64,000 nt of DNA from contig JAODBD010000006.1 in the NCBI GenBank assembly GCA_025463785.1, forward strand, positions 100,577-164,576. Reading direction: 5' to 3'. The notes below the pieces were generated by a model, which was not told the DNA's origin, made no database searches, and saw only the letters and a program-made list of their open reading frames with translations. Made by a program: the position numbers and the translations under genes. Of this stretch, positions 1-1,100 are shown in pieces; position 1 is the stretch's first letter, and each line of letters starts with the position of its first letter. The DNA is from Glaciihabitans sp. Lineage in GTDB: Bacteria > Actinomycetota > Actinomycetes > Actinomycetales > Microbacteriaceae.

Positions 1-21
1 TAGTCAGGGTCACGGTCGACG

Positions 22-58
22 ATTCTCCTGCACAACGGGGGTCTTGCGGCAAGCCCCC
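22..58 (-). promoter_or_regulatory. Rifamycin-associated-element-like inverted repeat plus -10-like hexamer for a leftward gene
   Basis: GGGGGTCTTGCGGCAAGCCCCCC at 37-59 has core CTTGCGGCAAG (43-53) with G/C arms. On the minus strand it is followed by GAGAAT (27-22) and GTG at 13-11. Confidence 0.55.
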
Positions 59-164
59 CATGGCGCGGTAGATTGAAAATAGAGGGGCTCGGGATTTCCC
101 ACCCGCTCGTCACCTACGGCAGCACGTTGAGGCTTTCCGCGTGTAACTGGGGCAAGAAGTATCT

Positions 165-1100
165 CTACGGCGAGAAGCCAAACGCCTTCGACAACGACGA
201 CGCGGTCGCTGCATGGGCCAGATGCGGCACACCGGCCACATCCTCGTAGAGCCGCGTCAGCGAGTAGTGGGTGAGGGGTGTGCTCACGATGCGCGGAGTT
301 TCGCCACGGAAGGCGACTGTCGTGAGCACGCTGTTGCCCGGCAGGTTGTTATAGTCCTCGTCGGCGGTGACGATGATCGCGAGACGTCCCGAGGCCCAGT
401 CGGGGCCGGCCATGACTCCCGGCATCCAGATCTTCATCCAGGCATCGGCCGTGCTCAATGGGCAACTGTGCGCGTCATCGCAGGTATCCGGAACGACCAT
501 GCCGACATTGGGACGTGTGCCAGCAGAGATCGCGGCCGGAAGAGCGGCAAGCGGAACATCATATTTCTGGCAGTCCGCGCGTTCCGCCCGGTAGTAGGTC
601 CACGGATTGTGGCGAACGGCGTACGAGCCGTCGTTGACGGTCTCGCAGTTGCTCTTCATGGCATCCGCGTAAACCCCCGCGGTCTTGCCAGCAGCGATGG
701 CCTGGCCGAACACCGAAGCCCCGAGGACCGGGACCTGTGACGGGTCAAGATCATTGGTCACGCCCGCGGTCTGGCCGCCGGAGATGGCCAAATAGTTCGG
801 AAGAGAAGGATGCGTGATGGCGGTGTAGTGGGTCGCGTAACCATACTGCTTTGCGATACCGAAGGTGTACGGCAGGTCTTGCATCATCTGCTCGAGCGAG
901 TGATTTTCGAGGACGAAAACGAGCACTTTTGTGATGTGTGTGCCGGATGCCGACGTCGGGATGGCCGTCTGGCCCATGCTCGGCACCGGTTGCACGGCGC
1001 CGGACTGTGGCGCACCCGCGGTGCCTCCCGCGGCGCACCCTGTGATCGCGAGAACGGCTGCGAGACAGAGTCCAGCGACGAGCCGTGCGCTTTTTGGCAT
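165..1100 (-). CDS. Secreted phosphoesterase / acid phosphatase family protein
   Basis: Lipoprotein-like N-terminus (MPKSARLVAGLCLAAVLAITGCAAGG) and VFVLENHSLEQMM...HPSLPNYLAISGG phosphoesterase motifs. Start trimmed to 1100, overlapping the upstream stop. Confidence 0.8.
   Translation of the reverse strand: MPKSARLVAGLCLAAVLAITGCAAGGTAGAPQSGAVQPVPSMGQTAIPTSASGTHITKVLVFVLENHSLEQMMQDLPYTFGIAKQYGYATHYTAITHPSLPNYLAISGGQTAGVTNDLDPSQVPVLGASVFGQAIAAGKTAGVYADAMKSNCETVNDGSYAVRHNPWTYYRAERADCQKYDVPLAALPAAISAGTRPNVGMVVPDTCDDAHSCPLSTADAWMKIWMPGVMAGPDWASGRLAIIVTADEDYNNLPGNSVLTTVAFRGETPRIVSTPLTHYSLTRLYEDVAGVPHLAHAATASSLSKAFGFSP

Follow-up and report, generated by a model that had tools for sequence, protein, structure and literature searches.

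The left end of the window (the whole stretch of 64,000 nucleotides of Glaciihabitans sp. DNA that was analysed, position 1 of which is position 100577 of the source contig, G000:C2) carries at positions 11-74 a predicted promoter built on the rifamycin-associated element (RAE), which would switch on helR, the product of which would free RNA polymerase from rifamycins. The RAE, the identity of HelR, both -10 elements, the terminators and their fixed geometry are established at the level of sequence. That two divergent and mutually exclusive promoters use the RAE as their common -35 core, and with it the whole explanation by two promoters and the polymerase, is the reading that we prefer by a modest margin. 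The presence of RAEs upstream of helR/helD, rox, arr, rph and rgt in Actinobacteria has been reviewed (PMC10719064; PMC8655204), and according to a 2026 paper (PMC12802891) it remains to be elucidated how the RAE senses rifampicin and via which regulator. The mirror-image promoter architecture described below is so far unreported, as far as the literature searched (reviews) allows this to be said.

The sequence GGGGGTCTTGCGGCAAGCCCCCC occupies window positions 37-59. It contains at 39-57 (no strand, centre at 48) the 19-bp palindrome GGGTCTTGCGGCAAGCCCC, of which the T at 42 is the sole asymmetry and which is extended to GGGGG...CCCCCC over 37-59. By sequence, an element was accepted as an RAE if it was a 19-bp palindrome with the core CTTGCNGCAAG and G/C arms, overlapped the sense -35 and was situated just upstream of a rifamycin-response gene. 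The first of these was met by window 39-57, which has 0 mismatches to GGGNCTTGCNGCAAGNCCC; the second by the arrangement TTGCCG (52-47), 19 bp, GAGAAT (27-22) together with the alignment of 45 relatives; and the third by the start of helR at 35 nt from the RAE centre. With at most one mismatch the 19-mer has a single occurrence in the whole genome. By itself the bare core CTTGCNGCAAG carries no significance: it has 4 genomic occurrences, and the reversed control pattern has 8. A second genomic CTTGCCGCAAG (contig C8) lacks the G/C arms, the core sites on contigs C12 and C15 are seemingly inside genes, and all of these were attributed to chance. An Rfam scan of 501 bases around the element yielded only a sub-threshold narK match, also taken as chance. 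A generic sigma70 scan called no promoter here, because the spacer is 19 bp long and the hexamers are weak.

Extension of the contig to the left revealed an open frame of 680 amino acids that begins at the GTG at 13-11 (minus strand; window 1-13) and runs to about 98547 of G000:C2 (L006 10013-7971). It matches the NCBIfam family NF041254 (motor_HelR) over its whole length with 1102.5 bits, the curated cut-off for membership being 750, and Mycobacterium smegmatis HelD (MsHelD, 6yxu) with E=7e-85. Like HelR and the class II HelD proteins it contains the Walker A and DEAQ motifs. Unlike them, it lacks about 30 amino acids that hold the GDRAQ motif III and about 9 amino acids in the PCh-loop region. 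These two in-frame deletions, near L006 8393 and about 8580 (on G000:C2, just left of the window), are shared in full by none of the 19 other aligned homologues, and close relatives are intact there. As the GDRAQ segment is conserved in 19/19 of these homologues, the set of ATPase motifs cannot be called intact. The Q of motif III is one of the two residues that were changed in the published MsHelD mutant to block ATP hydrolysis. The region of the PCh loop, which in HelR (class II HelD) is expected to extend to the rifampicin pocket, is present here but about 9 amino acids shorter than in the closest relative. Relaxed selection on this HelR was sought and not found, with 93 synonymous and 64 non-synonymous changes on its branch versus 80 and 49 in its sister. 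The deletions may be real or due to an assembly fault, and they weaken any claim that the source strain in particular is protected. No arr was found in the source genome. The helR gene is placed between two genes of the same strand (window 165-1100, minus; L006 5355-7460), the products of which look phosphoesterase-like by eye.

The company that RAEs keep was followed across genomes. Among 250 Microbacteriaceae genomes helR is carried by 49. In one member of this family (G107), 1500 bases of the helR region agree without a difference with Diaminobutyricibacter (now Leifsonia) tongyongensis, by which the family was recognised as Microbacteriaceae. The RAE core (at most one mismatch) was present within 250 bases upstream of the gene in 45 of the 50 helR regions of this family, and the 19-mer (at most one mismatch) was found in 37/49 genomes with helR versus 17/201 without a full helR match. 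The Microbacteriaceae RAEs that do not precede helR mostly belong to rox; among 17 such loci retrieved, 12 have this gene downstream. From all prokaryotes, 80 loci with the exact 19-mer were drawn from named genomes, and at least 63 of these precede helR, rox, rph, arr or rgt, 63 being the number of alignments with one of those five genes downstream. Several of the remaining named loci proved to have the same genes (helR at L128, rox at L140, rgt at L164 and L171, arr at L166). In Mycobacterium 32 RAEs were inspected, and every one has arr, rox, rgt or helR downstream. Because RAEs are so regularly found with rifamycin-response genes, the element in the window is considered genuine, and there is little doubt about its identity as the RAE of helR. 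The original prediction, that 11-59 is a promoter resembling a rifamycin-associated element and that the gene leaving the left edge may be a rifamycin-response gene, was thus confirmed in its observation and supported in its interpretation, with the genuine RAE at 39-57 and the gene annotated as helR after extension of the contig; the comparison with known RAE promoters that it had called for bore out RAE membership by alignments and downstream genes. The window element agrees with the published actinobacterial RAE in its 19-bp palindrome, its core, the kind of gene that follows, helR downstream and a sense -35 that overlaps the RAE.

To locate the promoter elements, an ungapped alignment of 45 helR regions of Microbacteriaceae was anchored on the RAE core. 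All 45 contain [C/G]A.AAT or a near variant at offset 21-26 from the RAE centre, with the A in 45/45 and the T in 45/45. In the window this hexamer is GAGAAT (22-27, minus strand), preceded by a 19-bp spacer and by the -35-like TTGCCG inside the RAE (47-52, minus strand), the TTGC of which is invariant in nearly all aligned RAEs. The GTG at 13-11 follows 9 nt past the last base of GAGAAT, much as had been predicted (a minus-strand GAGAAT about 8 nt before the GTG). An in-frame GTG or ATG occurs exactly 35 nt from the RAE centre in 27/45 regions; in the others the start codon is further downstream and the hexamer has remained stationary. Since the hexamer is fixed to the RAE whatever the distance of the start codon, GAGAAT is interpreted as the -10, and helR as leaderless or nearly so. 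The predicted leaderless leftward gene is in this way supported by comparative sequence, and a leaderless sense promoter is likely. It remains inferred, as neither 5'-end nor rifamycin-induction data exist for the source organism. Microbacteriaceae helR would then usually be leaderless, unlike the genes in published accounts of the RAE. At 61-59, where the palindrome has its far edge, an in-frame ATG is present upstream of the GTG, and an automatic start call at this ATG would be wrong if helR is leaderless, as is probable.

Alternatively, GAGAAT could belong to a Shine-Dalgarno site (AGGAG, situated 11 nt upstream of the GTG), in which case helR would have an ordinary leader transcribed from an upstream promoter. 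In favour of this, AGGAG is present in the window (29-25, minus strand) and in one close relative. Against it, the 45 relatives have [C/G]AnAAT or a near variant at offset 21-26 even with the start codon 70 nt or more away, and most of them have CAGAAT or CACAAT without AGGAG. This reading is very improbable and was rejected on the basis of the comparative spacing, the overlap of AGGAG with the -10 being accidental.

The same Microbacteriaceae alignment showed a second, equally strong block on the opposite side of the RAE, with A at -26, T at -22 and A at -21. Read on the opposite strand it is TAnnnT, and its distance from the RAE centre mirrors that of the sense hexamer exactly. In the window it is TAGATT (69-74, plus strand), with the -35-like TTGCGG in the other half of the RAE (44-49, plus strand) as the mirror of the sense -35, and a predicted transcription start near 81. 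The mirror block was then tested on data that had not been used for its discovery. In 62 named loci the antisense TAnnnT was present at offset 21 in 61 and a single time altogether over the remaining offsets between 10 and 33, while the sense xAnnnT was present at offset 21 in 61; in Mycobacterium the antisense block was found in 31/32 and the sense one in 32/32. A further set consisted of 148 distinct RAEs of Actinobacteria with helR, rox, rph, arr or rgt downstream, chosen without regard to their flanks; here the numbers are 140 (antisense TAnnnT) and 147 (sense xAnnnT, offset 21-26), against a background of TAnnnT at other offsets of 1/3166. The counts of 140 and 147 leave out 19 Stenotrophomonas rows, which had been selected on the sense -10. 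It should be kept in mind that the loci in these alignments do not represent independent events. Eleven 19-mers that match the RAE by chance, in other phyla and in viruses, are flanked by TAnnnT on neither side. Three matches to the RAE in viral contigs, without mirror -10s and without a rifamycin gene, look like chance.

As AnnnT is its own reverse complement, the direction of the block rests on its first base, which is T on the antisense strand in 160/167 loci; on the sense strand the corresponding base of the sense block is C or G in 146/167. The two blocks have essentially only the A and the T in common. In sigma70 promoters these are the bases of the -10 that are read by sigma region 2. 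That only the sigma-read bases are shared argues against the blocks being a mere extension of an operator palindrome. An antisense promoter at the RAE is consequently regarded as likely, in the absence of transcription data. The symmetry of the repeat had been noted in the original prediction and treated as incidental; the mirror-image -10 on the other strand matches it. Its statement that no credible rightward gene follows the repeat was upheld, though a conserved rightward promoter is predicted there.

Another possibility is that the left conserved block serves a second sense promoter (P1, in tandem with P2) as its -10. The RAE would then be situated in the 5' untranslated region, and an antisense promoter would not exist. 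For this pleads that two sense starts have been mapped in M. smegmatis helD (PMC10719064) and that the block reads CAnnnT on the sense strand. Against it plead the T reported above at position 1 of the block as read on the antisense strand, the absence of a conserved sense-strand -35 at the right distance, an adjacent hairpin that terminates leftward transcription only, and the position published for the start of P1, about 20 bp ahead of the RAE, which does not agree with the block as its -10. The P1 reading is therefore unlikely.

If the mirror block is a -10, the antisense transcript is predicted to start near offset 33 from the RAE centre. In 39 of the 106 loci tested, and solely on the antisense strand, a hairpin rich in G+C and with a T-run behind it starts at offset 31-39; the controls gave 0-2 from offset 40 onwards and 0-3 when read in the sense direction. 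The start of the stem peaks at offset 33 (24/40), i.e. 7 nt past the antisense -10, and example terminators have folding energies between -17 and -19 kcal/mol (z about -5). The terminator was found in rph loci in 7/7, in rox loci in 12/23 and in Microbacteriaceae helR loci in only 12/45. At the expected place in the source genome (82-120, plus strand) just a weak, imperfect hairpin without a T-run is visible. The window thus has a canonical antisense -10 but no good terminator, which counts against the proposed mechanism.

The whole arrangement was also encountered in Stenotrophomonas. A related arr is present in 33/81 genomes of this genus, and an RAE is located 68-70 nt before its start codon in 30/30 upstream regions read. 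These regions also carry TACTCT or TAATCT at the mirror position and a terminator hairpin that points leftward, and the 20 distinct ones among them have TAGACT on the sense side; the count of TAnnnT at the antisense mirror position, 20/20, is unselected. The arr gene is chromosomal and its neighbours look by eye like ordinary Stenotrophomonas genes (GlnK, ComM). A complete RAE module, consisting of the RAE, TAnnnT on both sides and the leftward hairpin (loci L189, L185 and L277-L306), therefore exists outside the Actinobacteria, as is shown by sequence, and no account of it was found in the literature searched. Because the whole module is conserved before Stenotrophomonas arr, a regulator restricted to Actinobacteria is not needed. 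Whereas published accounts of the RAE describe two sense promoters and an unknown regulator, the present comparison adds a mirror antisense -10, a positioned antisense terminator and a copy outside the Actinobacteria.

The mechanism that we propose is as follows. The sense promoter (TTGCCG-19-GAGAAT, minus strand) would have a weak -10 that lacks the first T, and transcription would begin at the GTG itself or no more than about 2 nt away from it, to give a leaderless mRNA. The antisense promoter (TTGCGG-19-TAGATT, plus strand) would have the stronger -10, of the TAnnnT type, and its transcript, which in many relatives opens with an intrinsic terminator, should yield only a hairpin RNA of about 30 nt. 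Both promoters are inferred to be active and unable to be occupied together. Without drug, RNA polymerase would be drawn mostly to the antisense promoter; sub-inhibitory rifamycin would stall it there, so that the balance shifts to the sense promoter and the polymerase itself is the sensor. This competition is inferred, and we hold it as slightly more doubtful than probable. What makes it plausible is the precedent of B. subtilis, in which a related dual-promoter rifampicin sensor has been shown (PMC12802891). The helD/pps alarm of that organism likewise has a sense and an antisense promoter beside a HelD gene, a stronger-looking antisense -10, 19-bp antisense spacers and the polymerase as sensor. 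However, its promoters converge without overlap, whereas those of the RAE diverge and share their -35, so that the RAE is not of the B. subtilis type and the collision model cannot be transferred unchanged. In M. smegmatis, rifampicin induction of rox, helD and arr occurs without SigB (PMC6529629). A bolder reading, in which the RAE is a self-contained rifamycin-sensing switch that lacks no regulator and works with any sigma70-type polymerase, including that of Stenotrophomonas, is no more than possible.

Several observations plead against this mechanism. If a stalled polymerase acted merely by steric exclusion, helR would be repressed and not induced, unless the complexes stalled at the antisense promoter were quick to fall off. 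With divergent promoters that overlap, it depends on the dissociation rate of these complexes whether the effect is positive or negative, and this rate cannot be read from the sequence. For B. subtilis, loss of induction was predicted when the promoters are moved until polymerases clash (PMC12802891). In M. smegmatis two sense promoters and no antisense one have been mapped around the RAE (PMC10719064); two such sense promoters were not visible as conserved elements in the aligned loci, and this conflict is unresolved. Finally, the conservation of the RAE's G/C arms (GGGG/CCCC) is about as high as that of the -10s; a dimeric regulator would account for this, a shared -35 by itself does not.

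The RAE could accordingly be the operator of an unknown rifamycin-responsive factor, a dimer that binds the 19-bp palindrome over both -35s and is released or activated by rifamycin. This is the view taken in the literature (PMC10719064). It is supported by the conservation of the full palindrome, including the GGGG/CCCC arms, even where it had not been a selection criterion, and by the disappearance of induction in M. abscessus when half of the RAE is missing (as cited in PMC10719064). On the other hand, no such factor has been reported in the reviews (PMC10719064; PMC8655204), it would be needed in all of the many genera over which the RAE is conserved on single scattered genes as well as in Stenotrophomonas, and deletion of half of the RAE takes away a -35 too. 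A regulator is not excluded and is ranked closely behind the polymerase as sensor, at odds that we also judge to fall a little short of even. The mirror -10 and the positioned antisense terminator turn the question of how the RAE senses the drug into a test by mutation of two bases. If the polymerase is the sensor, one rule would link the rifamycin induction of helR, arr, rox, rph and rgt in Actinobacteria with that of arr in Stenotrophomonas, and this rule would resemble the dual-promoter alarm of B. subtilis.

Some individual loci deserve mention. In L047, L050 and L054, which belong to one genus (g59), the RAE upstream of helR has decayed and the left block is apparently partly kept; these are natural cases of loss. 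In Actinoplanes aureus (L138 124) an RAE with both -10s is found ahead of a gene that by eye resembles an MFS drug transporter, and given this by-eye assignment a further class of RAE-controlled gene is a possibility only. In Pseudonocardia xinjiangensis (L165 2669) one exact RAE is situated between a divergent rgt (plus strand, 68 nt) and helR (minus strand, 225 nt), and might serve both.
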